Shown piece by piece: positions 12,230-62,711 of a stretch of DNA of 64,000 bases. Position numbers and translations under genes: made by a program. Below the pieces are notes generated by a model. That model did not search any database, had not been told where the DNA came from, and worked only from the letters and a program-made list of their open reading frames with translations. This stretch comes from Asterias amurensis. Lineage: Eukaryota; Echinodermata; Asteroidea; Forcipulatida; Asteriidae. Where the stretch lies: positions 20,922,450 through 20,986,449 of the forward strand of contig NC_092648.1 of NCBI RefSeq assembly GCF_032118995.1. Reading direction: 5' to 3'. Numbering within the stretch: position 1 is the first letter of the stretch; the number at the start of each line of letters is the position of its first letter.

Positions 12230-12244
12230 TTAAAAAGAGTGGTG

Positions 12245-25390: not shown

Positions 25391-25779
25391 TGGTCACTTT
25401 ATCCTTTAAACTGGTACCATAGTCTTGATTCATCGCGTTCAGTGGGTGCTTAAAGGACACATTCAAACTGCAGATGGCGCTGATCCAGTTGTGCACATAT
25501 TGAGACTGTAACTTCTTGGACCGAGACTACGGACACCAACGCGCAAAAGCAAGACCAGTGCCCACAACTTCATAAAGCATAATAAACACAAACACTTGCT
25601 GAGAACAAAGTAGTGTTGCTTATAATAGAAAACCAAGTTTGCATTGTGGCTGGTGCGGCCCAACTAAATCTTTGCTTTGCAAAGAAATCTGGCAAGCAGT
25701 TTTTTCTGCTTAACAATTTTTATGAAATTGGGCCCAGTGCCCAGACTCACAAAATTGTAAGCAGATAGAAAATGCTTAA

Positions 25780-28258: not shown

Positions 28259-31200
28259 TTACTCATCGAGCTCAAACATGACGTCATTGCTGAAAACCAC
28301 AGCGCTGTTAGTCCGATGATCCTGCAGCTCCAAGGGAATACTATCATCCTGGTTGTCATTTTGGTCACATGCTGTTGCCTTTGTATCGCTGTTATGTTGG
28401 ACATCTGCTTTCCCAGTTTTTGGATCATCTTTATCAGCTGTTTTCACACTATGCTGCGCGGCGGCTTTTCCTTTTGCTGTGCTCTCACCTGGGTCATTAC
28501 CGTTTTTATGCTTCTGGTTTTGTTTTGTGCTGACCGTTTGTTCCTCTATCTTCTCCTTGAACCCTTGGTTTTGCCTGGCGGCAGCGATATTGCCTTCAGA
28601 TGAAGTGGCACGAAGTGGGTAGCTGGATTCGAACCACGCTTCCTTCATCTCACGCCTGTCTTCATCGAATGCCATCGCTCTCTTCGCAGCATTCATCTTT
28701 TTCCGTTGACGCTTGCTAGATTTGGGTTTCTTCTTCTTGTTCCCATTTGAGATGACCGTACCACCATCATCACCACCGCTGGAATCGCTGCTCGTCTGTC
28801 TCTCCATGCGGCCTCCCATATCTGGGAAGACGACCTCCTCCAGAAACTCCGGCTCTTCCTCTTCGTAATTGTTCCCGCCCCAGTAGTGGATCTCTGAATC
28901 GCTGGAGGCACCTTGATTTTGAGATCTGTCCCGAAGCTTTGTGATGAACCTCCTCGGTCTGGGAGGTTGGTATCGTTTGTTTTTACCCTTTGCTTTTCTT
29001 GGACTGTTACTAACCATCGTCTCGACAACAACATCTTCACTGAAACTTACTGACCTCTGACTTCTGCGGTAGTGGGTTCCATCTTTTAAGACACTTCGGA
29101 GGCCAGAGGGAGAGCAAGGGGTTGAACACGGGCTGGAAACGTCACTTCCAGTTGAGTCGTCTTGCTTCAGGTCCAGCTTGAGAGAGGCTGCGACATTGGA
29201 GATCTCTCCTATCACAGCATCGACCACTTTGTCTGTGACTGTACCTAACGCAGCATCAGACATGGCTTCTTCACTTGATCTATAATACGCTTCTGGGTAT
29301 CCATTCACTTTGGGCTGAAGGAGAAGTGAAAAACATTGAGAGTTAAATTCAATTAAAAAAAATTTCCGTATTGGTGAAAAAAGGAGATTAGGCCTAATAA
29401 ACAAATTAAGTACAATTATTTGAGTCAAAGACAGTCAAGAACAGGTGAAGAAAATATTCAATGAAAATGAAATGAAAATTGAATGTAATGGATACGGAGC
29501 AAAGCAATATGGGTTACAAGATGAGTTACAACCTAAAATCCATCATACTCAATTACTGGTCAATGTAAAATTTAACGCAAAATGCAGGCCTAATCCAGTT
29601 ATTAAAATATCTTAGGTTTTTACTTTTGTGGGCATTGCCAAACCTATGGGCAGAGCATTGATGCTTGATTCCCGCACATTGTGTTAAATGACAGCAATGA
29701 AAACATCTATGCAATCTTGGTCTATGTGCTATGGTGCAACTTTTTACCCAATACAAATAGCTCCTAGTACTAAATAAAACTCCTGTAGAAAAGATATAGA
29801 TTAGGCCTATAATAAAAATAACATTACTAATTGATAAAAAACAGTATAGAAACGAAAACAGTATAGTAAACTAAAAAAATGAAAATAAATTAATTTCTTG
29901 TGTAAATAAAAAGTACAATAATGCACATGTATTAGGCAAAAACATTCAAAGATACAGCCAAGAGCAATTAAAATACACAGGAAGGAAAAAGAAACAGCTT
30001 GAGCTTGAAGGATTGCCTCAAAGAAACAAAGTTCCTGTCTAGAGGCGCTCCTCTCCAGCTGGTCCTAACATATTGAAATATAAAAAAACATAAATATCCA
30101 AACAGCAAAAATCAGCAATAAAAATGCACATAATTTCCATGTAGTATAGTGCATCGCGCTAAACCTGGTTCATACTTCCTGTGTATTCAAATGCGATACG
30201 AATTTGACGTGAACTTTACGTCACAACTCAGTTTTCGCATCAATATTGGCAAGAGAGTTGACCACAACTCAACAGCTGCGAATTATTTGTTGCAAGTATG
30301 TGACGTCAACACTCGTATCGCATTCGCATTTACAGGAAGTATGAACCGGGCTTTATCCATAAAAAACTTTTTGCATTGCTCGGTGTGTATTGTCATGTTC
30401 AAAATATTGCACTTGCACACAATGCGTTCTGCAGGATGGACACATGGTGCTCCTGTGTCCCAAGGAATTCTGTCCACGGGAGATTCGGTCCCCCATATTG
30501 GAAATTAACATGGGCAGGAGGAGGATAATTCAAAAGAGGGCGCTATCAGAAGAAGTTTGTACACAGTTTGTCATATGGGGGACCGAATCTCCGGGGGAAG
30601 CATCTCCTGCCACACCGGCCTAATTCATAAGGGCCTCGGGGATTTTGATTCGTGCGCCCTCCTGGAGACAAGTGAATATATCAAGACTTTTTAAGTTTTG
30701 TGGCATATCATGGAGGTCAAGCACACTGGACTCAAATCAAACTCTGATGTTTCTGATCAGCAGAGTGTGGGTTCGAGTCCCTGTCTTCACAACAGTGTCA
30801 TTGAGAATGACACCTTAAAGGCAGTGGACACTATTGGTAATTACTCAAAATAATTATTATCATAAAACCTTACTTGGTAACGAGTAATGGGGAGAGGTTG
30901 ATGGTATAACAAATTGTGAGAAGCGGCTCCCTCTGAAGGAATGTAGTTTTCGCGAAAGAAGTAATTTTTCACGAATTTGATTTCGAGACCTCAAGTTTAG
31001 AATTGGAGGTCTCGAAATCAAGCATCTTAAAGCACACAACGTCGTGTCACAAGGCTGTTTTTTCTTTCATATTGTCTCACAACTTCGACGACCGATTGAG
31101 CTCAAATTTTCAAAGGTTTGTTATTTTATGCATATGTTGAGATACACCAACTGTGAAGACTAATTGTAAATCTTGACTGGAGCATTTCAAGGGCACCAGG

Positions 31201-34200
31201 GCAATGACTAGGGGGCATTGGGCCAGTGGTTTCTATTCTTACCTCTAACTCAATGACTAGGCTGTCCTCTGTGGCTTTTATAACCCCACAGTCCATCTCA
31301 CTCCCGGCAGACCGTGGTCGTCTCCCTTTACGTTTCGTTGGCATGGCGGTTACGTGTTCACGAACATTGTCTTCAGTCAGGAACAACTTTTCCTGCAAAA
31401 ATGAAAGTAGACATAGTCAAACCTTACAGCATACACAAAATATGTCGATTAATATCTATACATTTCTATCTAAAACTAAATAATTACGAGGAGAGCTGAT
31501 AAAAAAAAAAAAAACAGCAGTCGATTTTATGACAAGCTAGGATTAATCCTATCTCGAGTTAGGACCAGTTCCCATGCTTACATCCTTACGGACTGGGAAG
31601 GGCGTAACTCTGTTTCAGCCCCTGAAGTAGGTGACAACATGTTCCTGGTAGCAGTTGATTTGGATCAAAAGTAAAAAATGTATGTGTAGCTCTCACCTCA
31701 AAATGGACAGCCGGCTTCGTGATGTTAGGCGATCTCGCATAATTGTTTTTTGGGGGGTAAATAAGAAAATCCCCAATAAGTAATTGTCACTAAACAGCAA
31801 AAAAAGGAAACTACCAGAAAACCATGAGCTTCATGTCACCCAAATCCTAACGATAGACCTACAATGGAGTAGGGCCATCCGCTGAGAGGCGTGTACAATC
31901 ATGGGTACAAATTGTAAATATCATACCTTAATACATGATAACAGGATTAGTGTAGACTGTTAGTGTAGATTACCATCTATTGGCCTCCTCATAGCTACAT
32001 GTATGCAATGTACAAATTGTACTTTAAAACTTGGACCATAACTTCCTCATACTAAAACAGCATGTAACTTCACCTGAGCATAGAAATCTCTCTCTTTAGT
32101 AAGTTTACGTCAGCATAGAAATCTCACTCTTTGGTGCAACAGTGCACGGTATACATGTAGGGTGCAATGGGTAACGCACCCAACTAATGTTGTGGCTACT
32201 TCATCAGTCAGTCAGTGAGCTGTGACACTTATTCCACAAAGTACTGTTAGTGTTACCCTACCCTGCCTATTGGCTTTCAAACATGACCTACAGCTTCAAT
32301 ACAGGTCACCTCTAGTCTTTTCAAGGCTTTCCTATCACTTATCAATGATTCAACAACAAGGAAGTTCAAAGGTCATCTGTGTTTTATTAATAGATTTTGA
32401 ATTTCTGTTTGTTGTGGTGAGTCAAAACAAACAAGTTTCCTGTTGAGGGGTAGGGAAGAGAAGCTTTTGCAAGGACATTATTATTCAAATTTGCTATAAA
32501 GAGACATTAATATTCACTTGTGTGAAAGAACATGTAATATATTTGGGAGGGTAATTACTTGCAGCTGAGAAGCTAAATTATAAAGGAAGTGGCTACAATG
32601 TGTTTGAGCATTGATTTTCAGTGGGACGGCCCAGGGGCCACAGCACTGTGTCTAGATTCTTACATGGAGGGCACAAACTGTGAAGAAATCCACTCATTTC
32701 AGCCCTCCGAGTCTGTTGCCCCATATCTTGGCCTTGGTGCCCCTTCATAATGATTTCCCATAGACTTTTAGATTTTCCAATGGAAGTGCTAATTAAAAAA
32801 TTAAAAATTGCCTTGCCCAACGATATAACAGAGGCACCCTCATCTTAAAAAATTGGGACTTTCAACAGAAACTTTCCAGACTTGGGCCCAATTTCATAAA
32901 GCTGTTTAGCAAAAATTACTACTTGACAAATTTCTTGGCCAAGCATAAACTGAGTCAGGCACCAGCAACAAAAATGCAAACTTAATGTAATTTGAGCTGA
33001 TAATTTGTTTCTGCTAAGCAATACTATTTTGTGTTTAGCAAGTTTTTGTGCTTACAGGCTTTCTGAATTGAGGCTCAGTTCACCCGCAGTAAATACAACA
33101 AAAAAGGACTGGGAAATCTGACCGTGGAGAGCAAGGCCCAATTTCATAGAGCTGCTAAGCAATATTTTCCGAGCATGGAATTTCTTCCTTAATAAAAACA
33201 AGACTACCAACCAAATTTCCACGTGATTTTCAGGAAAAGCAAACAACAGCTGAATACCAGTAACCAGCAATATGCAACAAATGGAAATTTGGTTGGTAAT
33301 CTGTTTTTATCAAATAAGAAATTTCATGCTAAGCAAATGTTTGTGCTTAGCAGCTCTATGAAATTGGGCCCAAGTGTTAGCCCATTACAACATAAAAATG
33401 GCCTTTTGAGCTCCTGGATGAAATTTTAAGGCCTGGGAGATGACCTTTAAGATTCCTTACCTGTAAATCTCCATCTAGAGACGCACCAGCCTTAAATCCG
33501 GACCATTCTCCTTGGGAAGATGTCGCTTTGTGAAGGAGCAAAACTGCCTCTGAGGGCTGGACGTCCAACTCCATCTCTGTAAGTACGCACTGAGGTTGAA
33601 ACACTACGTGTAGTGCGAATGGTACCGCGACTGTGCAGGAAAAACAAGGGATACAGTTAGAAGTAGGACCAATATCAAATTCCTGAAAGGTTTTATGAGA
33701 TGAACCTATAAGAAATTTCATAACAGTTTAGAAAAGGAAAGGGTGTACAGGGGTCGAAATTAAGTGTATTTTCATGGTAGTCAGCAGGGCTAGTAACCAA
33801 GATGTTTTAGTAGCCCTGATGAGATTTTGGTAGCCCAAAAAAAACCCATGTCTTGAGTCCAACACAAAGTTTATAATACACCATCAGCACAGTTCATTGC
33901 TGTTTGTGATAATGATTTTTGCATTATTTTCCCACTAGCCCGCCGGGCTATCAAACTGGAAAAATGAGTAGCCCGGCTTTAAATCTAGTAGTCCTGGGCT
34001 AGCGGGCTAGTGGCAATTTCGACCCCTGGTGTATCTTAAAAGTTTCAGACTTATGTTGGTTTGGTATTGGCCTTTGTGCCCCTTGCCCCCTTCAAGTTTC
34101 CCATAGACTTTATGATTTTCCAATGGAACTGCCCTTACCAAAACTGAATTTGCCTTACCCTCTCAGTGATGAATTGCCAGGCCTGCTCTTAACGAGCTTC

Positions 34201-36527
34201 AGTGGACACTATTGGTAATTACTCAAAATAATTATTAGCATAAAACCTTACTTGGTAACGAGTAATGGGGAGAGGTTGATAGTATAAAACATTGTGAGAA
34301 ACGGAGCCCTCTGAAGTTATGTAGTTTTTGAGAAAGAAGTAATTTTCCACGAATTTGATTTTGAGACCTCAGATTTAGAATTGGAGGTCTCGAAATCAAG
34401 CATCTGAAAGCACACAACTTCGTGTGACAAGGTTTTTTTTTTTCTTTCATTATTATCTCGCAACTGCGACGACCGATTGAGCTCAAAATTTCACGTTTGT
34501 TATTTTATGCATATGTTGAGATACACCAACTGTGAAGGCTAGTCTTTGACAATTACCAATAGTGTCCAGTGCCTTTAAAAGAAAGTTTTGATTGCATATT
34601 GTAAAACACAAATTTCCTTCAAGTTAAAAACTTTTTTAAATATCATTTTCTTTTTGTAACTTCGTAGTGCATCTTTTGTTTTAAATTGTGGAGAAACTTT
34701 TTAATGTGTGTATTCTGTGTGAATTTAAACGTAGTTTAAACTGAGTTTTTGCTGTAAAATCTCATACAAGAGTTTTGTTTACAAGAGGCTGTGTCGTCAT
34801 GGTCAAACATAGAATTATGAACATAGAACATAGAAAACTGTCAACCAGTCCCTCCGTATCATTTCTATAGTAAACAACACTCATGCACGTGCAATAACTG
34901 ATTGAGTTCTTAATTCAATGAGAGCCACATAAATGCTTGGACCATGACAGCAGAGCCCCTTTAAAGGGAACAGAACAAATTAAAAACAAAATTCATCTCA
35001 AGTTATGTCGAGGGTTCTACCTCCACTGATGCTATCCACGGCTGTGAATTTCAGGAACACCGTTGAACCATCTTCGGACATCTGCTTCTGAAGATCCTGT
35101 GTCTCTATTGCAGCCACTTGGATGATGATGGAAACAGTTGCATCATCTTGTCTGAAGATATAGGAAGGGCATCTTGGCTTCGTCATCTCAGCTTGGTCTG
35201 CTCTTGTGGAAGCTTTCAAATCGACGCATTGGATGCTCTTTTCTGGGCTGGATTGAGAAACCTGATTTTTATGATCTAAGAGTTGCTCGTCTTGATTTCC
35301 TTGGTCTTCTTCTTCAGCTGCTTTGGAATCTCCATCAGGTTGGCAATTTTGAGAGTCTTTAACTGACGTGACAGAAGACCCTGCAACAGGCTTTGGAGGG
35401 TCAACCTCTGGCTCTTTGCCGTCAAGGCATTTGGGTGGAATCTCTTCTATCAGGGCTGGTTTCTCCAACTCAGGTGCAAACGATGGCAGTGCCGGGATGT
35501 CAGGGGGTAAAACGGGAAGGGTAATGGTCAGGCAGGACTTGCTTTTGTCAAACTTGGCACTTCCGTGGTCCTCGTCGACAGGGTATGGCAGCGACAGATC
35601 AAGCTTGTATGAAACAGGCTTCTGACACTCCAAGACTATTTGCTTCTCGAAGACATCCAACCGCACTGGTGCGATCGACTTCAACAAGGGAAGCTGTATC
35701 TTGACAACAAGTTCTTGGGGTCTTGTTGTGGGCATTGAATCTGGAGCGTTGGTGAAGTTCTGCATATCGAAATGTCCCCTGTGAGTGATACTGTACTTCG
35801 GTTCAACGGGTCCAGGCTTCTTTTCAATCTTCTTAGCAGGAGGGTTGCTGCTCTCAGACTCTTTCTTCTTATTGAACGGATATTCAACATTGAAATCTTT
35901 CAACGCATCCGTTTCGCCAGATGGGCCATCTTTGCTTTTTGTTCTAATAACGCAAGACCTGGGTTGGCCCATGAATTTCTTTTTAGTCATCTTTTTCATA
36001 TTGGCCTGATCCAGTTTGACCCCAAAATTTGATTCGATGACATTGGCCGCAGTTTCGTCCATGAGCTTGAAGAACCTCGGATCTTTCTCCCCATTCTTGA
36101 AGCACTCGGGATGGAAAACACAGTCATAAACCATGCATTTCTTTCCACCTTTGTCAACATCTTCCCTGCCCGGAGCTAGACTGTGAGGTACCGACCACTG
36201 GGTACCAACTTGCCCGTTGTCTCGGCGTACAGTAGACGAGCTGGGCTTGGCGACTTTATCGCTCTGGCATACATTGATAAACGCCTTCTTCTCTCCGTCC
36301 ACGTTTGTTTTGATTACGTATCCAGGCTCGGGATTCACGAAAACAACATCAGAGCCGCGATTTCTCTCCAACTGAGCAATTTCCTCTTCGTATTTTTTTC
36401 TATTTTCAGGGTCGGAAATCTCCTGGGCATATTCGAAGAAAAGCTGTCTAAACTTCTCGTCTTTTAAAGCTTTGGTTATTCTTTCAACTTCGTCTTTAGT
36501 CACATCGAGGTCCCCGGACGACGCCAT
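28259..36527 (-). CDS. DNAAF2: Protein kintoun / dynein axonemal assembly factor 2
   Basis: Four coding exons on the minus strand, 36527-35021, 33630-33461, 31392-31243 and 29314-28259, join in frame to 960 residues. Kintoun is a cytoplasmic co-chaperone that helps preassemble axonemal dynein arms with HSP70/HSP90; loss causes immotile cilia. Residues about 35-200 are the PIH1 domain (FVNPEPGYVIKT, then WSVPHSLAPGRED and a HPECF motif). Residues about 267-340 form the CS/PIH1D-like beta domain (ELVVKIQLP, DLSLPYPVDEDHGSAKFDKS). Exon 4 encodes an acidic/basic tail with VLKDG and SVSFSEDVVVE, a serine-rich segment resembling the conserved C-terminal block of vertebrate DNAAF2. The protein is somewhat longer than the human one (about 837 residues). 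The start codon has A at -3 and G at +4. Introns contain several transposons at 29,315-35,020. Donor sites read GTAGAA, GTAAGG and GTAAGA. Confidence 0.95.
30161..30354. mobile_element. Foldback element, AAACCTGGTTCATACTTCCT ends
   Basis: 194 bases with inverted ends (the right end reads AGGAAGTATGAACCGGGC-TTT) and inner arms ATGCGATACGA / TCGTATCGCAT. Confidence 0.75.
30439..30600. repeat. Foldback element with GGAGATTCGGTCCCCC arms
   Basis: GGGAGATTCGGTCCCCCATA at 30,479 and TATGGGGGACCGAATCTCC near 30,573 are inverted copies. It is related to 1,822-1,992. Confidence 0.6.
30693..30825 (+). mobile_element. tRNA-derived SINE head
   Basis: GGACTCAAATC, GTTTCTGATCAGCAGAGTG and the B box GGGTTCGAGTCC are in the plus orientation, related to the SINE at 2,164-2,440. 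It is cut at about 30,815 by a TTAA element. It lies in intron 3 of DNAAF2. Confidence 0.5.
30819..31168. mobile_element. TTAA element, AGGCAGTGGACAC family, right end lost
   Basis: It starts AGGCAGTGGACACTATTGG after TTAA at 30,815. It stops after CACCAACTGTGAAGACTAAT, lacking the last 30 bases. Confidence 0.75.
31393..33460. other. Intron 2 of DNAAF2
   Basis: 31,393-32,590 is AT-rich without a recognised element. 32,620-32,810 is a repeat with GCCTTGGTGCCCCTTCAT. 32,886-33,372 holds palindromic elements with GGGCCCAATTTCATAAAGCT-type ends. Confidence 0.5.
32886..33372. repeat. Palindromic repeats, GGCCCAATTTCATAAAGCTG family
   Basis: One foldback starts GGGCCCAATTTCATAAAGCT at 32,886. A second starts at 33,127 (GGCCCAATTTCATAGAGCTG) and ends CAGCTCTATGAAATTGGGCC at about 33,371. 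Relatives are at 50,947-51,137 and, partly, 25,700-25,745 and 58,246-58,378. Confidence 0.7.
33749..34027. mobile_element. Foldback element, GGGGTCGAAATT ends
   Basis: AGGGGTCGAAATTAAG at the left and CAATTTCGACCCCT at the right mark it; the interior is rich in GTAGCCC/GGGCTA motifs. It lies in intron 1 of DNAAF2. Confidence 0.65.
34196..34574. mobile_element. TTAA element, AGGCAGTGGACAC family
   Basis: CAGTGGACACTATTGGTAAT at the left and AGTGTCCAGTGCCT before TTAA at 34,575. The terminal AGG of the left end is lost. It lies in intron 1 of DNAAF2. Confidence 0.8.
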
Positions 36528-36720
36528 GATTGTTGTTTGTTTTCAAACGTGCAAGAAACTATTGCATGATGATGTGTGTAATTATCATAAAACAGTCGTA
36601 AACAGCTTTACGAAACGCATCTAAAATGTCAATAGGTGGCGCACTTACATTTTCTAGAAACGTCTCCGACGCAAACAATGAGAAATTTTGTGGGGAAGGG
36701 GCCCCAGGAGTTAATTGTGA

Positions 36721-38239: not shown

Positions 38240-38681
38240 AGGCACCGGACACTTTCATTTGTAATTGTCAAAGGCCAGTATGCTCACTTAGTGTAACTCA
38301 ACAACATGCCTATTGCATAGAAATATAACAAATCTGTGTAATTGTCAAAGACCAGTATGCTCACTTAGTGTATCCCAGCAACATGCCTATGCATAAAAAT
38401 ATAACAAATCTGCAAAAATTTGACTCAATTGGTCATCAAAAATGCACGAGAATAATACACGAAAAAATACCCTTATAGCACAACAAATTTTGTGCGTTTT
38501 TTCAGGCCTAAATGAAATTATATGAATGAGAAATAATTCCTCTTTCTAAAAGAAATACGCTCATTCAGTGAGAGCCGCTTCTCACAATGTTTTATACTAC
38601 CAACAGGTCTCCATTGCTTGTTACCAAGTATTTGTTATGCTAACAATTATTTTGAGTAATAACCAATAGTGTCCAGTGCCT
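38240..38681. mobile_element. TTAA element, AGGCAGTGGACAC family with internal duplication
   Basis: It starts AGGCACCGGACAC after TTAA at 38,236 and ends before TTAA at 38,682. A 70-base segment (AATTGTCAAAG.CCAGTATGC) is doubled near the left end. Confidence 0.75.
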
Positions 38682-38685
38682 TTAA

Positions 38686-39061
38686 AGGCAGTGGACACTA
38701 TTAGTAATTACTCAAAATAATTATTAGCATACAATCTTTCTTGGTGATGAGTAATGGGGAGAGGTGGATGGTATAAAACATTCTGAGAAACGGTTCCCTC
38801 TGAAGTTCCGTAGTTTTCGAGAAAGAAGTAATTTTCCACGAATTTGATTTCGAGACCTCATATTAACTTGAGGTCTCGAAATCAACCATCTCAACGCACA
38901 CAACTTCATGAGACAAGGGTGTTTTTTTCTTTCATTATTATCTCGCAAGTTCGATGACCGATTGAGCTCAAATTTTCACAGGTTTGTTATTTTATGCATA
39001 TGTTGAGATACACCAACTGTGAAGGCTAGTCTTTGACAATTACCGATAGTGTCCACTGCCT
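38686..39061. mobile_element. TTAA element, AGGCAGTGGACAC family, full length
   Basis: 376 bases start directly after the TTAA that closes the previous element (38,682) and end before TTAA at 39,062. It has a shortened central stem (CGAGACCTCATATTAACTTG). Confidence 0.85.
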
Positions 39062-39065
39062 TTAA

Positions 39066-41055
39066 TCTGAACTTGCCCAGGCATCCGAGTGGTAGTCAAG
39101 GGAACTAGAAAACACAGGTAAACAAAGACCCACTGACGTATAGTCATTTCTTTTCACTCGTTGATTTTTTAATAATATTTGTTTACAATTCAATTAAACC
39201 AATAAGCACACATTGAGAAAAGAAAAAAATCTCCTTGTGTATGAAGTAAAAACCCTTTTACGATTTAAAATGAACAATTATAAACATGTTCCCGGATGTA
39301 TCATATAAGATACTGACTTGAACCCAGCATTTAGTTAATATGTTTCCCTCTGTTCACGAGGAACAACTTTTGTATTGGCAATGTTCTTTCAATGAAACAT
39401 GCGTGCTTTGACAAGTAAGGGCCATGTCACACGAGGCACTTTTCAGACAACTAGTTCTGGGAAATCTCCAGAAGAAGAAAAAAATGTTCGTTTCAATTTC
39501 CACAAAAATCTTTTTGATCGTAAGAAAATTTTCGAAGAATTACTCATTAAAATTGTGCTACCAAGTTGCTTGCCTCTTCTGACAGGGCCTTTGAAGTGAA
39601 CAGTGATCAATCTAGGACCCAACCCCCTACTCAAGCGCAACTACATTTGCTTACTCAAAACATAATCAAACATTTTGATTACCAGAAATTTCGGACACCA
39701 GCCCTACACAATTTCATATGTGTCCAGACTTCTTCTCAATTGCACTGTCTTTAGCATTATCATTTCCAGCTGAAACACAGCTCCATAAAACTTAGCCCAA
39801 GATGGCAATTATAAGCTCAAACCAAAACTGCATGCTTGGTAAGTTTTTGTAACCATTTTTTACTTGCATCCTTGAAGGTTGGTGGTACAGATTGCAGCCT
39901 ATACGTTAATATTGTTGATTGTGTTCTATTTTTGAAATGCCATAATTGTATCCTAATTAGCTCAACTGTCCATAAGAACGTTTTATATAAAAATGAATTT
40001 GTCATTGATTCCATAAAAATATTAATAATAGGCCTGTAAACCCTATTATGACAATCGATTTTAATTTGTTTGAAAGCAAAAATCACTAAGTAAAAATCAA
40101 TGTCAACCAGTCACAAGCACCATGATATGTAACAAAACAATATGAATGGTAAACATCAATTTTTTGTTGTATATTTTCAAACGAGGATTGCCTAGCAATT
40201 TGTGTGTTTTAACTCTAGCCCGGTGACTAATACCCACAATGACCCTTCTTATTCATAATCTTTGACTGAATAAAACTAATCAAATTAATGGTCACGTTAT
40301 TTTGGCAAGTGTGCTTTGTTCAGTTAATGCACTCAACCAGCCTTGTCAAAGACCAGTAGGGCTATTCGCACTTATGTGAGCCAGCACACAATAATGATAA
40401 CCCAGAAAAGTAATGAGATAATTTATACAGTGCTTTATATACACATCGTAAGGGTAAAAGCAAATTATATACATGAAAATAAAGAACCGCTGTGAAATGT
40501 TGAGCCCAATGCCGTTATCGGACTCACAAGATAAACGTGAACTAAACCCTTCTTAATATTTTCACTGTTTTGTAACACCGGGTTTTACTAAAATCTCAAA
40601 ACGTTATTTCAGGCGCAGACAGTTGTACACCATGTCCATTATACCATCTGCAAACCTGTGAATATCAATATTACCAATGTTGTGCACACTTAAGGCGGAT
40701 CTTTAAGACAAAATAATGTTTTTGTTAAAATGTATTCACAGGGCAGGGAAAAGCGGCCATCTTGGATTTTATAGTGACTCTGTAAAGTCAGTAGTAACGG
40801 TACAGATCGATCAAGTTAAGCATCCTTAGCAACTATCCCGTGTGTGGAGGCATGCCCAATTCGCAATACTTTGGGAGTTCCAAAAGTGACGTCATAAATA
40901 AATATTCATTCATGGCAATTAGATTGCTATCATTAAAATACGAAAGCTTTGGGGGAATGATACCTAAAAGTATCCAGTTAGTTGGTTGGCTCCCCGAACA
41001 AAAAGCTGTAGACCATGGTAGATAATGTTTTAACTTTGATTTCTGTATCATTACT
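39066..41055. other. Spacer between DNAAF2 and TMEM26 copy 1
   Basis: AT-rich sequence. 40,320-40,600 has weak resemblance to the TTAA foldbacks (TTGTCAAAGACCAGTAGGG). No gene was recognised. Confidence 0.4.
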
Positions 41056-41061
41056 TTTATT
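41056..41061 (-). promoter_or_regulatory. Candidate poly(A) signal touching the stop codon of TMEM26 copy 1
   Basis: On the minus strand the stop TAA (41,063-41,061) runs straight into AATAAA, whose first base is the last base of the stop. If used, the 3' untranslated region would be only a few tens of bases. Use is not shown by the sequence alone; another signal further downstream is possible. Confidence 0.3.
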
Positions 41062-44000
41062 TACACAACAGTGATCTCTTGCCCTTGGCTAATAGATGCT
41101 ATGACCCCATTTCTCCTTGTACCATTGGACCTTGCATTGTTCCTCATGTTCCCATTTGCGCCCCTGTGGCGAGACGTCTCCCTTAGCTCCAGTGTAGACC
41201 CCCGAGCACTGCGATTGTGATTCTCAGTTAACACAACATTGAGTCTATAAAACTGCAGCACAAGTAGAAGAGCATTCTTACACGTAAAGAAGATAAGTGA
41301 TTGATCGTATACATCCAAACCAAAGATGAGATATATCCGCATGATAAGGTATGGACCGTCTTGAAGGATCACATCGGTCATGAGCGCCCACAGAGCTGTG
41401 CCACAAAACACCCCAGACAACTGGTGCATTGATTTGGCCCAGCGGCTGGTCTCTTCACCATCTACTGTCGTTTCAATAGCACGCCGCCGTCTCTTCGTTG
41501 AAGTCAGGCCCAGAGTAAACTGCAGTAGAGACCAGCTCCACACAATCAAGATGGCTAGATAGATAGTCTTATTACACGCTATCTTCTGGAGTTTGAGGGT
41601 CTCCGAAGAGAATTCCAACATGTCGGCTGCCATGCCGATGTAGACAAGCAAGAGTTGAGACAGTTCGTTCCTGGTTATAGCTCCTTTAGGGAGGACCCAT
41701 CTACCCACGATTAAAACCAACATCAAAGTTTGCTGGTAGATAGCGGATACGCTCAGCTTAAGTTCGTAATTATCCTGAAGAAAGGAGAGGAAAAAATAAT
41801 ATTATGAAAACAATAAATATGAAACAAGTACGGCATTTATTTTTTAAATGTATTGTATACGTTTGATATTATTGGAACCCACTTGTTTCAATCCATAACA
41901 CAAACAGTGAAAAAATTATTTCAAAATATGGTTGGTTTTGAGATTATCGGTGAAAATATGGGATACACAATCTGGATGCGTTATAGTCAGTAACACCTCT
42001 CAGATTCACGCTTTTTTGTATAATAAAGTGATATTTGGAGTTGAAAAGATGCTATCGAAAGCTGCAGGACTTGTTTATGAGTAAGTTTTTATTGCCATTC
42101 ATTTCCAGAGCCCTTACCAAACGTATTATACCCTTTAAAGACAGACTTCAAGGTTGGGAAGAGATAATTAGCTTCAACCCACGTGTTTTTAAAGGCAGTG
42201 TGTATATACTTTTGGAAGTAAATAGCTGTCGATGTTATAAAGCATTATAGAAATGACCACTTTCAAGAAGGCCTATAGTTTTTTAGAAAGAGATATTTTT
42301 TCATCCCAAAATTTGAATCCGAGAGTGGCTTCAGGCATTAAGCCTTTCCAAGGCATGAGCATAAAATAACACAATTTATGCAACAAGTTTGATTTCTCTT
42401 TCATAAATTTCTTGCATTTTCGATGATCAATAATTTAAGCCAACATTTTCATAAAAATACGTTTGTTATTTGATGCATAGTTGGGATACACCGAGTAAGG
42501 ATGCTGGTCTTTGACATGACCAACACCCAGGGAGAAATACTGCTTATCAATTAGTTTTCAAACAATGTAAACTTCAAACAATTGTGACCGGCTATCTTTC
42601 TGTTTCTGCTAAGCATTAGTTGGCTGTGCTTAGCAAGTTTCATGATTACAGGCCTTACGCAATTGAAATCAGAAACAAATCAATTCATATTGAAGCTGTC
42701 GCACTTTCAAAAGCACGTCTACTGTTTTGTCTGTGATTAAAATGCATTGATTACGCTTATGGTTTTCTATTGTTTAAATCGACATTAAAAATCCAGTGTT
42801 TGGTGCAGTTGTTTCACCGCAGCTTTGAAGGGAAGGTACACGTTTCACGTTTTTCAATTACTCAACTTGGTAACAAGCATTGGAGAGCTGTTGATAGTAT
42901 AAAACATTGTGGGAAACGACTCCCTCTGCAGAAGTAACGTAGTTTTTGAGAAAGAGGTCATTTCTCAAAAAAAAAAAAAAAAAAAAGAGACTTCTAGCTA
43001 GAAGTCTTTTATTCTTATCTGAAAGCACACAATTTCGTCCAACAAGGGTGTTTTTTCTTTCATCATTTTCTTGCAACTTCGATAACCAATCGATCCCAAA
43101 TTTTCACAGGCTTGTTATTATATAATGGTAATGATGGGGTACACCAAGTACACCAAGACTGGTCTTTGACAATTACCAAACGTGTACCTTCCCTTTAAAG
43201 GGATACGTAACCTAGGATTGAGCAAGTTTGGCTATATAAAAACCGTTTTTGTGAGAAATGAATTTTAACGATTATGGTCAGAAAGACGTTTTGAACGTAC
43301 AATAAAGTGATCCAAACAACATAATGGCATTAAGGTCTAGCTAAAATGACTGTTGAATGCTGATTCAACGGAGAATGCATTTTCAAACGAAATAGAATTA
43401 GCCGGGTGTTAAAATGATAGGCTTTTTGTTGAAATTGGCAAATAAAACCAATTATTTCAGAAGATCTATTATTTTTAGATTGCTTCAATGATACCTTTAA
43501 CCCATATTATTGTTATACTGAATAATAATTTTGCAAAACATGATAATATACACGCTCAATCAATCACTACGCATCGACCATCTCCCGAATCAATAGGTAA
43601 AGCTATACTCGGTGAATCACTGACTTTGCATTTCATTGCATTTAGAAGGTCACATTATATACAGTCATCTTTTTGTCAACTAAGGTGATTATTGACAAAT
43701 ATTTTATACAATAAAAATAATGGTGGATTTAATAGATGGACGTTTGCATCGGGATAAATAGTTTACCAATGTACACCGATGTGTGTTAGCACTGTATGTG
43801 TACTTTCCCGAGCTCTGTGGAAAACATCACACGCATATTAACCGGGTGGGATTCGAACCCACGACCTTTGCCATTTTCTTGCAAACTAGAGCAATGTCTT
43901 ACCAAATAATGGAAGATAGTTCGCAATATTTGTTATATTTTCGTATTTATGACTATTGTCTCTTGATAAAAGGGTTCTCTCGGCCAATATCAGCAAAAGT

Positions 44001-47000
44001 AACTCAGTTTAATTAACAGGCATTCAAATTCACGTTTCCACAATTCATTGAAACTATGCGGGTTCTAGTAACTGTCGCATTAAATTTCGTTTCTTGTACA
44101 CACATCATTCATGCTGCCCCCATCTTGTTCCTCGTATCGAATAACAATAATGAATGCTATTAATCATTTTGCAAATAGGAACCAGACTACTTTGTTCTCG
44201 TAGCCTCGGTTTGGTAACATCGATATGAATGGGAGAGTTTAAATTCATGTACAGCATACTATCGCCTTTTCACCATTCCTCAGTTGAATTTTCACTGTTA
44301 ATACTGGTTCAAATGAATTAAATGGTCTACCAGCCATTTTACGGTTGAATTTTTCGAAATTAAAAGATTTTATTGACCCAAGGAATTTTTATGATCCTGT
44401 TTTGACCAGTGAATCCTAAAATGTTGAAAGTGAATTATTACTTTTGAATGTTGAATGCTGATGCAGCGGCGATGTCTTCTTTTTCAAACAAATTAATGAA
44501 AATTGGGCGGGAAAACACACAGTAAATATTTCACTTTAAAGGATTCGGGTACTTTTTCAAAATGTCAACAGATTTACATTTAACTTACAGGGTTTGAAGA
44601 TAATGGTAGTGGAAAGCTTCCCTTCAAATATTACTAACTAAGGTTGTGTAGTTTTTGAGAAATGAGTAAGACAATTCACAAAATAGTTTTGGTCTCATGA
44701 GACCAAAATTATTTTAGCATGTAAAATCCCCTTAACCAGTTATGATATTATACCAAAACTATAGCATAACTGGTTAATACGTTTTTACATGCTAAAACTG
44801 AGACGAAAATTATTACTTTTACTTATTTCTCAAAAACTACAGCACCTCAGTAAGTAAAATTTCAAGGGAAGCTTTCAAACTGTGTAAGTTTAATGTATAT
44901 CTGTGGACATTGTGTTTTTTCTAAGGAAAAAGCACATACACCCTTTAACGAATGACACTTCGACCAGTGATCATGACATGAATGAAAATAAAAGATTCTT
45001 ACATGATCAAGCTGTGAGAATATAACAGTGTGATTTCGTTCGCAATCTCCGAGTCGCACTATGCAACCAGGATAGTTCAGTCTCTTCTGAAAGTCAATAC
45101 GGGATTCCAGTAGGGAGACTTCTAGGACCCAGACCACTGGTAGTATGTTGCAAAGGTAGATCAACACCAACGGGAAGAACCTGCCGCAAAGATCGAAAAA
45201 CTATTGTGATAACAGTGCGACCAAAACAGATCTTGATAATTTTCAATCCAAAAAAACAATCGCCCCTGATTTCAAGTTTTTATAAAAACTAGTGAACATT
45301 TTAAATTTACCGTCACAAGGCACCCAGTGCACTGGGGCATCATGATGGGACAATTGTCATACATGCAATATAAATTACCTGGGATAGAAGTTTCAGCTTC
45401 ATTAGTCGAAAACCACAGAGCAATGTCGAAAATTATTACCGTGACATTGTTTTCCTAATTTCGCAAAAAAAAAATACAACCCCCAGCAAGCAATACTCTA
45501 AGGAAAGTCTAATGGAAATATGTGGACATTGTGTTTTATGTTTTACAAAAAGTACCCAAACCCTTAAAATAGGACAACCTTCAAAGACCAATATCAAATA
45601 TAAAAGTGAATAATATAACACGATGAAGAGCTTAAGAAAATTATACAAGCACATTATATAAGATGATGGGTTATATTTAAATTACTATTTTTAGCTGTTC
45701 CGACCTACCGTCGGAACAGGTATTGTTATTATTTATATATTGTTGGTATTGAAACCAAAGATTCCTTTAAAGGGTATAAAATATGTACTTTTTCCTAACA
45801 AAAAACACAATGTCCACAGATTTACATTAAACTTACACAGTTTGAAGATTATGATAGTAGAAAGCTTCCCTTGAAATTTTACTTACTGAGGTGCTGTAGT
45901 TTTTGAGAAATGAGTAAAAGTAATATTTTCCGTCTCAGTTTTAGCATGTAAAAACGTCACTTAACCAGTAATGCTATGGTTTTGGTATAATATCATAACA
46001 TCATAACATTTTACATGCTAAAATAGTTTTTGTCTCATGAGACCAAAATTATTTTGTGACTTGTTTTACTCATTTCTCAAAAACTACAAAACCTTAGTAA
46101 GTAATATTTGAAGGGAAGCTTTCAACTATCATTATCTTCAAACCCTGTAAGTTTAATGTAAATCTGTGGACATTTTGAAAAAGTACCCGAATCCTTTAAG
46201 TTAAACTTAATCACTGTAGCTTGAAAACCTGAGGAAACCGGTAAACAAGGGTACTTGCGTTGTGAACCAGAACACACTAAGCTCTGAGTTTGCATTGACA
46301 TGCACTATTAAATCACACGAGACATACGACTTAATATCCCATCATTAGAGAGAAAGCCATTACGGTAAAGTATCTTGCTCACGGACACAAGTGCCACGAC
46401 CGAGATTCGAACTCACACTCTGCTGATCAGAAACATGCCAGAGCTTAGTGGTTTAAACCCGCCGAGGCCTCTTGATAATTTTACCGAGACGAAACCATCC
46501 TCTAATATAATGTGTTTGTATAATTTTCTTGAGTTCTTTATTGTGTTATATTTATTCACCTTTGCATTTGTATTGGTCTTTGAAGTCTGTCCTATTTTAA
46601 GGGTTGTGGTACATTTTGTAAAACACAAAACACAATGTCCACGAGCGTTTGGTATCCACTCTTAAAATGAATGGCAATACAAACTAACTTCGTTAGAGGT
46701 AGCCTACATCTGCAGCCTTCGATATAGCATAAAGCATTTAGAGAGCCACTTCATTTCCGAAGTAAAATTATATAGAAATTCGATGGTTAAGGAGAAAGGG
46801 TATCAGGTTTTTATCGTACACAATTTTAATCTGAGAAATGTTACTGTCAGACACGTTTCTCAGATTGTGTATTCCAGTTAACGGTGCATTCTTAATGCGT
46901 CACAACCGTTCCGGTTTTTTGGGGTGATATCTAAAAAACGCTTTGAAGTGAAATTTTCAAAAGTTTGATTGTATAAGAATTAAAACAATCAAACGTTTCT

Positions 47001-47769
47001 AAAAAACAAAAGGCACACTTTACCTTTAATCGTTCGGCCACGACACTCCTCATTGAAACTAATCTAGTGAATGGTTACTCCATGTACAAGCTCCCCCCCC
47101 CCCCTTTTTAGAAATATGATTTATAAGTTAAATTAGGCATACTGCTGGTCAATAGTGTCTGCTCGTCAGTTTTTAGTCTGCCTGTCGGCCGGGTGTGTCT
47201 ACTTCCTAGACTATATTATTTGTTTCAGCGATCCTTTCTTGTATGCATTCCTGCCTTGTTGTGTTCCTTATCTTCAAAACTCCGTCCTCATTGTTGTTAC
47301 TATATACTACATGTACTGCAGCCATAGTTCTATTAATATTGTTATATATTTTTTTGTTCGTCCTCTTTGAATTCCAAAAAAAGCCTTTCCGGCTTCTCAT
47401 ATTGTTCTGCTCCGTATTCATTACATTATCATTTCCATGAATTATTTTCTTGATCCGTTTCTTGACTGTCTTTGACTTAAAATAATTGTACTTGATGCGG
47501 TTATTATTCTCAATTTTTGACCAATATGTAGTAAAAATGTTGATTGAATTGAGTTGAATCTGACAATTGAACACTTACCATCTCCACTCCCCATCTTCGT
47601 TATATCCAAACGTGAGTATCATCTCCATCATGTAGACTAACACAGTCACCGAGACGAACCAAAAGTAGTTATTACCCGTAAGATACACCGTCATAAACAC
47701 CCCTATCGTACCGTGGGCCAGGTAGCAAAACCGGACAATCGAAGCCTTTAAGGCTTTCTTGAACAACAT
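41061..47769 (-). CDS. TMEM26: TMEM26-family membrane protein, copy 1
   Basis: Three coding exons, 47769-47579, 45180-45003 and 41774-41061, give 360 residues, close to human TMEM26 (368). Hydrophobic segments fall near residues 10-30, 35-55, 65-82, 137-155, 190-210, 245-280 and 290-315, fitting a polytopic membrane protein. The family signature is clear: LMLVLIVGRWVLPKG followed by LSQLLLVYIGMAADMLEFSSETL, then LQDGPYLIMRIYLI and KNALLLVLQFYRL. Exon 1 ends in GEWRW and exon 2 starts FFPLVLIYL, the same junction as in vertebrate TMEM26 (KWFSPAIFLYL). The family's biochemical role is poorly known; in mouse it is used as a surface marker of beige adipocytes. Introns carry AGGATTCGGG-type TTAA elements. 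The tail after the last membrane segment is short and basic. Confidence 0.92.
42280..42520. mobile_element. Fragment of a TTAA-family foldback
   Basis: GAGTGGCTTCAGGCATTAAG and TTGGGATACACCGAGTAAGG match internal parts of the family; the ends are gone. It lies in intron 2 of TMEM26 copy 1. Confidence 0.4.
42829..43194. mobile_element. TTAA element, AGGGAAGGTACAC family
   Basis: AGGGAAGGTACACGTTTCACG at the left and AACGTGTACCTTCCCT before TTAA at 43,195. The centre GACTTCTAGCTAGAAGTC matches the element at 17,079-17,442. Sequence starting AGGGATACGTAACC follows at 43,199 and may be another family. Confidence 0.8.
43840..43915 (-). mobile_element. tRNA-like SINE head, second type
   Basis: On the minus strand TTGGTAAGACATTGC is followed by a B box GGTTCGAATCC within GGTCGTGGGTTCGAATCCCA. 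It lacks a full cloverleaf, so I call it a SINE fragment, not a tRNA gene. Confidence 0.4.
44540..44944. mobile_element. TTAA element, AGGATTCGGGTAC family
   Basis: 405 bases lie between TTAA at 44,536 and 44,945. The inner arms are TTTAGCATGTAAAA and TTTTTACATGCTAAAA around CTTAACCAGTTATG. It ends 58 bases from exon 2 of TMEM26 copy 1. Confidence 0.8.
45781..46195. mobile_element. TTAA element, AGGATTCGGGTAC family, opposite orientation
   Basis: 415 bases lie between TTAA at 45,777 and 46,196. The ends are AGGGTATAAAATATGTAC and AAGTACCCGAATCCT. It is the inverse of 44,540-44,944, both in introns flanking exon 2 of TMEM26 copy 1. Confidence 0.8.
46250..46485 (-). mobile_element. tRNA-derived SINE in intron 1 of TMEM26 copy 1
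   Basis: The plus strand reads CAAGTGCCACGACCGAGATT then CGAACTCACACTCTGCTGAT and CAGAAACATGCCAGAGCTTA, the complement of the SINE head seen at 2,340-2,430. The tail is near 46,250 (AACAAGGGTACTTGCG). Confidence 0.5.
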
Positions 47770-48992
47770 GTTGTAGAAATGATGGCGATTATAAAATTAA
47801 CCATTAAACACAGTTAATAGGTATATCTACGTGTAAATGAGAGTGGCAATTCAAGGCGAGGATTTGATTGTTGCATACCATGGGCCATGGCTCGTATACA
47901 AGCTGTTGACACATTAAATCAATAGAGTAGGCTATGGGCGGATTCACGGTGAAGCTATAAAACCGCGCGCAAAACACAACATGAACTATTGTTAAGCCAG
48001 TGAGTTATCATCATTAGCCCCTCCTTCGTTTCTCTCCTCTATACGTCGATGATGTTTCCATCGGAACGCACATCAACCAAACACCCGCCATGACGTCCTT
48101 TACTGTGCAAATCCTTCAAATTAATGTTCGGGTATAACAGACGTTCGAACTTTTGAGTATCAGCCATGTACCACAAGGTTAAACATTCATTAAATTAAAT
48201 TTGTAGTTTCATTTGATTGTTGTGTCTGTATACATTATGCTATCTTCCTCTGAACCCCCCCCCCCCTTTCCCAAACAGATGAGAGACGAAATACTGAAAT
48301 AAAAATATGGAATGTTAGCTTGAAATGTTTGCATTATCCATTTTATGGGACCGAAACAATATACATAATGATAGGCCAATAAAAGTATTTGCTTAAAATC
48401 AGCAGTAATTGAGTCCACAGTAATGAAGTCCCGGAGAATGTAATCATGGCTTTTAGTATAATTAAATTATCCATTATTTGTAATATGAGGCTGCTCGTAG
48501 ATATTGAATGAATAACAGTCTGTATTTCGTTGGTTTCTATTGGGGTTCTTCTTTCCTCGTAAGCATCGCACGCAAAGCAAATAATGGCATTAAAGTGCCA
48601 ACCGAACTTGATATAACTATCCAATGAGGGTAAAAGTGGAGTTTGAGTCAGGCCACTTTAGGACCTTGAATCTAGTCAATTCAAACACGGTAGTTTCTAG
48701 ATTGAGATAATAAACCTCCTCCCAAAAAAGTTTCCCTCTCTGACATACTGGAATATTTTTAAGAAAAACAAATCACCCTTATTATGATTGCCGCAACCGA
48801 AATGACACCATTTAGCGTGACCCAAACTTTTAAAAGAATAATGTATTTGTCCACATTTTTTTTTTTTTTTTGTGAAAAACGAGATTTCACTCTCTCAAAA
48901 TAAAAAGAGAAGACAAAGAAAAAGACTTTGACTTGTGAATGATATCTTGTTTTCGAAACGATTGAAGTCACTTATAATTTGTTCACAAAGCT
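47770..48992. other. Upstream region of TMEM26 copy 1
   Basis: This is the 5' flank of the minus-strand gene. No clear promoter motif or repeat was recognised. A C run lies at 48,257-48,266. Confidence 0.4.
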
Positions 48993-58673: not shown

Positions 58674-61600
58674 ATGATGAACCGACGCAAAGCCTTCAAG
58701 GCGTCCATGGTACGCCTTGTCTTTCTCTGTCACGGGATGATCGCTGTTTTCGCTGCCGTGTATACGACCCAGTTGTCGGAGTACTGGTTCATTGGAGTCA
58801 CGTCCGTCCTCTCTATGTTCGAGATGATTCTTACGTACAGACTCAATGAGAACGGAGAATGGAAATGGTAAGAAAAAAGTCATACAATTCTAAACTCTCT
58901 ATATTTGTTGGCGCCCAATCTCCGTTTCAGATTATTCTATGTACAGACTCAATGAGAACGGAGAATGGAAATGGTAAGAAAATGTCTTACAATTCTTTAT
59001 ACTATTACTAACTTTTTGGCGCCCAATCTATCCGTGTTCGAGATGATTCTTATGTACAGACTCAATGAGAGCGGAGAATGGAAATGGTAAGAAAACTGCG
59101 CTACAATTCTTTATCTTAACTTTTTGGCGCCCAATCTATCAATGTTTGAGATGATTCTAATGTACAGATTCAATGAGAACGGAGAATGGAAATGGTACGA
59201 AAAAAGTCCTACAATTCTAAACTCTCTTTACTTTTTAGCGCCCAATCTCCCTCCATGTTTTAGATGATTCTTATGTACAGACTCAATGAGAACGGTGAAT
59301 GGAAATAGTAAGAACAAAGTCCTACCATTCTAAACTCTCTATATTTTTTGGCGCCCAGTCTCCCTCCATGTTTGAGACGATTCTAATGTACAGATTCAAT
59401 GAGAACGGAGAATGGAAATGGTACGAAAAAAGTTCTACAGTTCTAAACTCTCTATACTTTTTAGCGCCCAATCTCCCTCTATGTTTTAGATGATTCTTAT
59501 GTACAGACTCAATGAGAACGGTGAATGGAAATAGTAAGAAAAAAGTCCTACCATTCTAAACTCTCTATATTTTTTGGCGCCCAGTCTCCCTCCATGTTTG
59601 AGATGATTCTAATGTACAGATTCAATGAGAACGGAGAATGGAAATGGTACGAAAAAAGTCCTACAATTCTAAACTCTCTTTACTTTTTAGCGCCCAATCT
59701 CCCTCCATGTTTTAGATGATTCTTATGTACAGACTCAATGAGAACGGTGAATGGAAATAGTAAGAAAAAAGTCCTACCATTCTAAACTCTCTATATTTTT
59801 TGGCGCCCAGTCTCCCTCCATGTTTGAGATGATTCTAATGTACAGATTCAATGAGAACGGAGAATGGAAATGGTACGAAAAAAGTCCTACAATTCTAAAC
59901 TCTCTTTACTTTTTAGCGCCCAATCTCCCTCCATGTTTTAGATGATTCTTATGTACAGACTCAATGAGAACGGTGAATGGAAATAGTAAGAAAAAAGTCC
60001 TACCATTCTAAACTCTCTATATTTTTTGGCGCCCAGTCTCCCTCCATGTTTGAGATGATTCTAATGTACAGATTCAATGAGAACGGAGAATGGAAATGGT
60101 ACGAAAAAAGTCCTACAATTCTAAACTCTCTTTACTTTTTAGCGCCCAATCTCCCTCCATGTTTTAGATGATTCTTATGTACAGACTCAATGAGAACGGT
60201 GAATGGAAATAGTAAGAACAAAGTCCTACCATTCTAAACTCTCTATATTTTTTGGCGCCCAGTCTCCCTCCATGTATGAGATGATTCTAATGTACAGATT
60301 CAATGAGAACGGAGAATGGAAATGGTAAGAAAAACGTCCTACAATTCTAAACTCTCTATACTTTTTAGCGCCCAATCTCCCTCCATGTTTTAGATGATTC
60401 TTATGTACAGACTCAATGAGAACGGTGAATGGAAATGGTAAGAAAAACGTCCTACCGTTCTAAACTCTCTATATTTTTTGGCGCCCAGTCTCCCTCCATG
60501 TTTGATTTAAGGTACAATAATTGTAGATTTAAGGTACAATAAACAAGGTAACAAAACACTGTGGCCACAGTGACGAGGCCTTCATAACTGACATTACCGA
60601 CACCGCTCAACAAATCCTATATCTTTTCTGACGACAAGCAATAACGGCAGTATTGCCAACGGGGTCCAAAACAACGCCCCCAACGCCACGAAGGTCTTAC
60701 TCGAAAACTTCCCAATTATACTTATAGTGGTAGTGGCCGGGGTCAGTTCCTTTGTGATATACGGAACCTCATAAGCCAAGCGCCTTTGGGGCCAAGACAG
60801 ATTGTGAGAGCAATAACTGTTTTGTAAAAGGTTTCCGAAGATTGGTCAAACCTAGCCTGTTCATCTGACGTCACCGAGGTTCGTGAATTACGCGAGGTTG
60901 GCCTCAAGCCTAGGTCAATCCCCGTCCATTATAGCACCTTTCACCTACTTTCAGACGACTGAAAGTACAGCGTAAGAATGAAAGCCGACGTCACTGCACG
61001 GTTATCCAATGAAATCACTGTGTCTAATAAAATCACTGGTTCTGAAAGGCAAGACCTGTCGTTAATCCTTGCGGATAAAAAGGGGGCACAAGTCTAAGCA
61101 AAAGCTGTCTTCCAATACAGGGCATACTCATATTACACTTCTTAATGTACCAACATTTATTTGTCTGCTGCAGGTTTGTTCCATCAGCCTTCATCTATCT
61201 GATGGCAGTCACGCCAGTAGTGTGGATACTGGAACTATCAATGTTGGACTTCAGGCTTACACTTCAAGCGGAAATCGGTGACAAGTCAAATTGCTTCTAC
61301 AAACCAGAAGACTTCTGCGTTTCTGGTGGCAACATTACAACTGTAACGCGGTCTAAGAAAGCAGAGGTAACTCCTTACACAAATTCTTGTCTTTCTTAGT
61401 TTGAGGGGTTGAGCTCTAGACAAAAAGAGAGCTGTCGTTTGAAAGAAGGTCAAAGGGTAAACACAACGTTCAAAAGTTGGGGAGGGGGAATTTTAAAACG
61501 TTGATGTACTTCTTTGACTTTGAATGAAAGAAGGGTACTACGATCCATTAAACAAAAATGAAGGTGTTGGGTCCAAACAAAGTTTGTCCATGAACTTTTT

Positions 61601-62711
61601 AAGGCGTTTATGACTCCCCTCCCCCTCGGAGTCATACGTAATAGCATTAATGTATCCACCCCCTCTCTATGTTGCCAAGACCCGCCTCTACCCCCTCGCG
61701 GCCCCGTTGCTTTTGAATGACACTAATATCTTCTCCAACCTACAGGAAACTTACGAACTCCAATCATCCTTCTCAACAACTCTTCAGCAAACCTTGATGC
61801 TCGTCTTGATCCTAGGCCGTTGGCTTCTACCAAAGGGACAACTGACCCGTGACCAGTTGTCCCAACTCCTGCTCGTCTACATCGGCATGGCGGCAGACAT
61901 GTTGGAGTTCTCATCCGAGACGCTGAGACTGGAAAAGATCGCCTGCAACCTGGACATCTTCTACCTTATCTTAGCAGTGTGGACTTGGAGCTTGATGCAG
62001 TTTACCCTCGGCTTGACTGCCACCAAGGCCAGGAAGCGCCGTGTGGCTGCTAAGGTGTACCGGTCCGAGTTGGAAGAATTGAACAAACGTCGTTACAGGT
62101 ACTCGAAGAAAGTCTCTGTGTTCTGTTGCGGCACTGAGCTGTGGGCCTTACTGACCTCAGTAGTCATACAGGACGGACCGTACCTTTGCGTTCGCCTTTA
62201 TCTCATCTTCGCCTTGGGCATTTATGATCAGTCAACTATTTTCTTTACCTGTAAGAATGCCCTACTGCTAATTCTTCAGTTTTACCGCCTTTCGGTAGTC
62301 CTAACGGAAACCTACAAACAGCATGAGAAGAGTCTACGCATCCGACGTCACGCACAACTTTCAACGGATGAGCAAATCAAACCAGAGGACCCAACCAACG
62401 AAGATTTGACGGCGGTCAACGAAGTTGCATTGGCGGTCATATCCGGTCACATGATCCCCAATGGTGGATCGGCAACCAATCACACCGACGGCGGTAATCA
62501 GGTAGCCAATCACACCACACATGTTGATGACGTAGGACGGCACCGACCCAATGGGGATGCAGTGGTGATCGACATGGGCAATGGACATGTAGAGACAGAA
62601 TCTCCTAAGAATAGATCCAGAAATCAAAGGATGAACGGTGGTCTGAAGGTCGACGATGCGGAAATATATTCACATCATAGTGTGACTTTTAACTTAGATG
62701 ATGACCGATAA
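58674..62711 (+). CDS. TMEM26: TMEM26-family membrane protein, copy 2
   Basis: Coding exons 58674-58867, 61174-61366 and 61746-62711 join to 450 residues with the same phases (2, then 0) as copy 1. Exon 1 encodes two membrane segments and ends GEWKW. Exon 2 begins FVPSAFIYLMAVTPVVWILEL and includes NIT, a possible glycosylation site. Exon 3 carries the family core (LMLVLILGRWLLPKG, LSQLLLVYIGMAADMLEFSSETL, IQDGPYLCVRLYLI, KNALLLILQFYRL). It then has a hydrophilic tail of about 130 residues, longer than in copy 1, rich in N, H, T and D. A second in-frame ATG lies immediately after the first (58,677). Intron 1 holds the 113-bp array derived from the end of exon 1. The gene diverges from copy 1, about 10.9 kb away head to head. 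The role of the family is not established. Confidence 0.92.
58820..60507 (+). repeat. 113-bp tandem array built from the exon 1/intron 1 boundary of TMEM26 copy 2
   Basis: Each unit holds about 48 bases of the 3' end of coding exon 1 (encoding SMFEMILTYRLNENGEWKW or close variants) plus about 65 bases of intron. GT positions corresponding to the real donor (58,868) recur at 58,974, 59,087, 59,195, 59,308, 59,421, 59,534, 59,647, 59,760, 59,873, 59,986, 60,099, 60,212, 60,325 and 60,438. From 59,195 onward the spacing is exactly 113. Units alternate between GGTACG and AGTAAG at the donor from 59,195 to 60,212, making a 226-bp higher-order repeat. Ten of the 15 units keep GTAAG. Most units also have a pyrimidine tract and AG (TTTCAG, TTTTAG or TTTGAG) just before the exon-like part. 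Confidence 0.95.
60955..61110. repeat. Dispersed repeat with GACGTCACTGCACG core
   Basis: The core GACGTCACTGCACGGTTATC followed by CAATGAAATCACTG and AAAATCACTGGTTC recurs at 62,925-63,130 beyond the gene. Parts are at 4,990-5,070 and 16,160-16,230 in the GRAM-like copies. It lies in intron 1 of TMEM26 copy 2. Confidence 0.6.

Follow-up and report, generated by a model that had tools for sequence, protein, structure and literature searches.

In the window (the whole stretch of 64,000 nucleotides of Asterias amurensis analyzed here, from contig NC_092648.1), two TMEM26 genes lie head to head: one on the plus strand at 58674-62711, called copy 2 below, and a second on the minus strand at 41061-47796. 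The parts recognized in the two genes are as follows.

58674-58867, plus strand: coding part of exon 1 of copy 2, ending in phase 2 (TG/G), from translation and Pfam PF09772
61174-61366, plus strand: exon 2 of copy 2, with the acceptor CTGCTGCAG/GTT
61746-62711, plus strand: exon 3 of copy 2, up to the stop codon
About 47579-47769, minus strand: exon 1 of the second gene
Near 45078-45182, minus strand: part of exon 2 of the second gene
Within 41061-41801, minus strand: exon 3 of the second gene

The Pfam family Tmem26 (PF09772, gathering score 22.2 bits) is matched by the exon 1 frame of copy 2 with 33.9 bits and by the exon 3 open reading frame with 192.7 bits, in a scan covering these two frames. 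Exon 2 is matched to the paralogue alone (46% over 35 amino acids). The three recognized coding exons of copy 2 are open and, by a hand count of the phases from the exon coordinates, compatible at their joins. The two proteins are 52% identical over exon 1 and 64% identical over the portion of exon 3 that aligns. Exon 1 of the second gene ends with the donor ATG/GTAAGT (the slash marks the exon-intron border), and a search of the window found no array of the copy 2 type in that gene.

Intron 1 of copy 2 has 2306 bases (58868-61173), and a tandem array fills its positions 58868-60505. TRF places the whole array at 58811-60505 with a period of 113 (15.1 copies, score 2570); a period of 226 scores higher (7.6 copies, 94% matches, score 2880), far beyond chance. 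The original prediction of a 113-bp unit recurring 14 more times in the gene's own intron is confirmed by TRF and by the 15 places at which the exon end and donor pattern is found. Unit 1 is the real end of exon 1, and the 14 further units are intronic. As predicted, the unit is made of an exon end, the 5' splice site and the start of the intron. It comprises the last 57 bases of exon 1 rather than the expected 48 or so, because the homology extends back to 58811, with about 56 intron bases after the splice site; the span, given before as 58820-60507, is refined by a few bases at both ends. The donor GTs stand at 58868, 58974, 59087, 59195, 59308, 59421, 59534, 59647, 59760, 59873, 59986, 60099, 60212, 60325 and 60438, with spacings of 106, 113 and 108, followed by 11 of 113. 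The array is matched nowhere else within the window and is thus not a copy of a dispersed repeat there. It divides into the following features.

58811-60505, plus strand: whole tandem array across the exon-intron boundary, 15 units and a 12-base partial unit (TRF, unit table and alignment)
58868-58869, plus strand: GT of the true donor, ATG/GTAAGA
58869-58871, plus strand: in-frame TAA met directly upon use of any downstream donor (translation)
58917-59137, plus strand: edge units 2 and 3, which are divergent; their donors (58974 and 59087) have the 9-mer of the true donor in full
59138-60267, plus strand: units 4-13, homogenized 226-bp dimers with alternating types B and A, all donors weakened
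60268-60493, plus strand: edge dimer of units 14 and 15, whose donors (60325 and 60438) likewise have the 9-mer of the true donor in full
60494-60505, plus strand: partial terminal unit CTCCATGTTTGA, 12 bases

Two small repeats are seen at the downstream end. A 16-base direct repeat, GATTTAAGGTACAATA, occurs at 60504-60519 and 60526-60541, sharing two bases with the end of the array and extending past it, and a perfect 16-base palindrome, CACTGTGGCCACAGTG, lies directly beyond the array at 60557-60572.

The 15 units are not equally related. In the identity matrix, units 2 and 3 share 80-87% of their bases with each of the other units. The middle units belong to two alternating types, B (units 4, 6, 8, 10 and 12) and A (units 5, 7, 9, 11 and 13), which are 88-90% alike, with 94.7-100% identity within B and 98.2-100% within A. 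Several units are identical (8 = 10 = 12, 9 = 11 and 5 = 13). At the downstream edge, unit 14 is of type B and unit 15 of type A; compared with units 8 and 9, they have four and three base differences, respectively. The middle is homogenized and the edges are divergent; therefore, the B-A dimer multiplied after duplications of the monomer. The array probably started with a tandem duplication, with one end in exon 1 and the other in intron 1, that gave the intron a copy of the exon end and its donor. The units would then have multiplied by unequal exchange or slippage, initially as single units of about 113 bp and afterwards as the 226-bp dimer that homogenized the middle. The exon-derived parts have drifted, judging from the TAG present in the exon 1 frame of six of the 15 units (5, 7, 9, 11, 13 and 15) and from the changed first part of unit 2.

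A GT is present at all 15 donor positions. As the original prediction held, GTAAG is kept at 10 of them; the other five have GTACG. The full 9-mer ATG/GTAAGA is found in units 1, 2, 3, 14 and 15, so that four of the 14 extra donors equal the true one. In the middle, a weakening change is present in all 10 donors, ATA/GTAAGA in type A and ATG/GTACGA in type B. Donors were scored with a matrix of human frequencies, and for pairing with the 5' end of U1; the frequencies are those of a species other than the host, and the scores are rough. On that scale, ATG/GTAAGA reaches 8.99 bits and -8.0 kcal/mol, ATA/GTAAGA 5.65 bits and -4.5 kcal/mol, and ATG/GTACGA 5.84 bits and -4.1 kcal/mol; the 10 middle donors have lost 3.15-3.34 bits and 3.5-3.9 kcal/mol of U1 pairing relative to the true donor. 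The donor of exon 2 scores 7.62 bits with the same matrix. Scores of 8.99, 5.65 and 5.84 bits are reached by 0.5%, 3.8% and 3.2%, respectively, of the 3643 plus-strand GTs of the window; the weakened donors are not dead, being in the top 3-4%. Two other GTs score in between: ACG/GTGAAT, in six type A units (five in the middle and unit 15), with 6.44 bits and -5.6 kcal/mol, and the GT at 60548, directly past the array, with 6.98 bits and -6.5 kcal/mol. The ladder of decoy donors foreseen after the true donor is weaker than proposed: four rungs are full copies of that donor, and the 10 others are weakened.

On the acceptor side, where the scores are likewise rough and based on frequencies of another species, no AG of the array reaches the score of the true acceptor (5.86), the best being 4.07 at 59489. 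Outside the array, the AG at 60953-60954 scores 5.82. Pseudo-exons inside the array were rejected on the weakness of its acceptors relative to the true one. A structured RNA was rejected too: the window has no Rfam match at gathering scores, and one dimer (units 8-9) folds no better than its shuffles (z +1.38).

With any downstream donor, translation reads TGG and then TAA at 58869-58871. A decoy donor could only truncate the protein, because exon 1 then runs into this in-frame stop. If a downstream donor were used now and then, the result would be a longer exon 1, an immediate stop and a peptide of 65 amino acids, from a transcript probably degraded by nonsense-mediated decay, so that the effect on TMEM26 would be nil or slightly lowering.

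We compared the variability of the aligned columns over five unit lineages. Exon-derived columns (13/58 variable) and intron-derived columns (19/59) vary about equally (P 0.30; 12/58 and 18/59, P 0.29, without unit 1), and constraint on the exon-derived parts was rejected on this ground. A core of 38 columns around the donor, picked by eye afterwards, has 5/38 variable columns versus 27/79 elsewhere (P 0.026; 5/38 versus 25/79, P 0.041, without unit 1). Between units 1 and 2, differences number 0/37 in the core and 18/67 in the rest (P 0.0002, with pairs that are not independent). In sliding windows of 30, 40 and 45 columns, permutation gives P values of 0.17, 0.10 and 0.08, so that conservation of the core is not significant on that test; with the core chosen by eye as well, it was set aside. 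Comparison of the edge dimer with the spread dimer places two of seven differences in the 18 donor positions of the 226 (P 0.10). Of the three changes for which the spread dimer may have the derived state, two fall in donors (P 0.018), both weakening; for the third, at +34, the direction is uncertain, as units 2 and 3 share the type B state. These donor-region and derived-change statistics are leads, not results.

Tandem repeats across exon-intron borders are known from lancelets, in globin genes and Adh3, under the name of mirages (PMC3087553). The units measure 150-160, 157 and 10-72 bp, splice signals are copied in many units, somatic instability occurs at Adh3, and the BflGb6 mirage has six and three units in two haplotypes (PMC3087553). 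The globin mirage turns over by concerted evolution within the cluster, with the boundaries excluded; either border of an exon may be duplicated, the 3' boundary of exon 2 in the case of BflGb9 (PMC3087553). Further lancelet mirages are described for troponin C and for PGBD5, in the latter with imperfect repeats of 60 and 108 bp (PMC3902484). The TMEM26 array has the same three features, a tandem unit spanning the boundary, splice signals copied in its units, and a middle in concerted evolution with excluded edges, and by its sequence it would be a further case of this kind. It corresponds to BflGb9 in repeating the 3' end of an exon, here exon 1. It differs in its number of units (15 versus the six and three of the two BflGb6 haplotypes, a count that holds for those haplotypes only), in its two-unit higher-order repeat and in the weakened donor of every middle unit. 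Among the open-access papers listed for TMEM26 with introns and tandem repeats, or with amphioxus, none deals with such an array, judging by title and start of abstract.

We consider it likely that the array belongs to the mirages, as an intronic minisatellite, and that the original donor is mainly used. It is a real boundary minisatellite of rather large size, most likely largely neutral and unstable in length. By analogy with the lancelet cases, the array would be removed along with intron 1 through the original donor, the one closest to the cap, and the number of units probably differs among alleles. Consistent with this are the 15 units in register, with divergent edges and a homogenized middle as in the globin mirage; the three coding exons, open and in phase; the lower strength, relative to the true donor, of 10 among the 14 extra ones; the lack of an array AG scoring as high as the true acceptor; the dimer folding no better than shuffles; and the drifted exon-derived parts, about as variable as the intron-derived ones. 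Some observations fit less well. Four decoys are identical to the true donor and retain its exon flank, and the last of them (60438) is the closest to the acceptor; in classic competition experiments, the donor position nearest the acceptor is favored. Even the weakened donors score among the best 3-4% of the window's plus-strand GTs, and the low variation of the 38-column core is unexpected under neutrality.

Human IFI6 (6-16) has a minisatellite with a unit of about 12 bp that, like the TMEM26 array, repeats a splice donor. In the cited accounts, two of its downstream units serve as donors, giving three mRNAs (PMC4526556, citing Turri 1995; also PMC3618361), which makes it a counter-example to silent copies; the TMEM26 array is known from its sequence, and each of its downstream donors brings a stop. 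The downstream copies of TMEM26 could be active decoys that compete for U1 and the spliceosome, make exon 1 longer and expose the TAA; the yield of full-length TMEM26 would then fall, and the length of the array would act as a tuning knob. The four identical 9-mers, the immediate stop, the two donor units of IFI6 (PMC4526556) and the less variable core around the donor, though not significant in sliding windows, speak for this. On the other side, 10 of the 14 extra donors are weakened, and the mirages of Adh3, globins, troponin C and PGBD5 are described or suggested to be harmless to splicing (PMC3087553, PMC3902484). For the lancelet genes, Adh3 data and globin RT-PCR suggest undisturbed splicing, with the authors' caveat that the copies might serve as cryptic sites (PMC3087553). 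On balance, we regard active decoys as unlikely. Splice choice or output may be affected, as first proposed from the sequence; the claim is weakened, though not refuted, by the lower donor strength of 10 of the 14 copies.

The weakened middle donors are a hint, from very few events, of selection against decoys. Splicing might even gate the growth of the array, the dimer having spread to 10 units only once each of its two donors had been weakened, that of type B by A to C at +4 and that of type A by G to A at -1, and boundary minisatellites would then disarm their own decoys while expanding. The order of weakening and spread is proposed because the edge units 14 and 15 are of the same types with intact donors. 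The test is post hoc, with very few events and the uncertain direction of the third change, and the six type A units with ACG/GTGAAT gained another middling GT; we hold this gating, in the array as in boundary minisatellites generally, to be quite doubtful.

Human paralogues have internal tandem repeats at exon-intron borders, with units of 30 bp on average repeated four times; as in TMEM26, minisatellite expansion alters the exon-intron structure of duplicated genes, but the outcome described there is intron formation rather than a ladder of donors (PMC2812944). The polyubiquitin gene UBC likewise has tandem repeats each with a splice site. Its sites sit at the borders of coding monomers and are dual-specific, working as 5' as well as 3' splice sites (PMC10809524), whereas the TMEM26 repeats are intronic and offer donors only. 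A hypothetical intron-gain model is published for the globin mirages (PMC3087553), by which a unit could turn into a real exon. Six of the 14 extra units (4, 6, 8, 10, 12 and 14) keep a whole exon-like frame from ATG in phase with exon 2; unit 3 retains it with V for M, and unit 2 is open with its first part changed. However, internal exons need an acceptor and the array has none as strong as the true one, and type A units contain TAG, so that a role as a source of exons or introns is very improbable. An assembly artefact, with a wrong unit number or an array made of mis-joined reads, is the least credible reading: the scaffold has a gap (a run of exactly 500 N at 7610-8109) and several identical units make collapse or expansion possible, but the edge units and several middle units bear private, ordered differences, and for the similar 108-bp repeat of lancelet PGBD5 the authors state that re-sequencing argues against assembly error (PMC3902484).

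As a mirage, the TMEM26 array taken alone is one more, rather large, example. Competition between duplicated donors is a classic splicing test, and the array offers it in natural form, with 14 extra donors, exon flanks and graded strengths in one intron. Transcripts across it would reveal how the spliceosome chooses the correct donor, and a comparison of many such arrays, whether decoys get disarmed as arrays grow.

Elsewhere in the window, dispersed repeats occur at 10392-10972, 11844-12233, 17075-18423, 25775-26148, 34200-34580 and 38338-39071; several are found in both orientations, and similarity reaches 94% (among the longest 25 of 221 matching pairs outside the array, one pair being the TMEM26 exons). 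Peptides similar to GLGQYCLPK recur in open reading frames at 18364, 25664 and 63654. Two long open reading frames on the minus strand (34998-36542 and 28259-29434) presumably resemble DNAAF2/kintoun.
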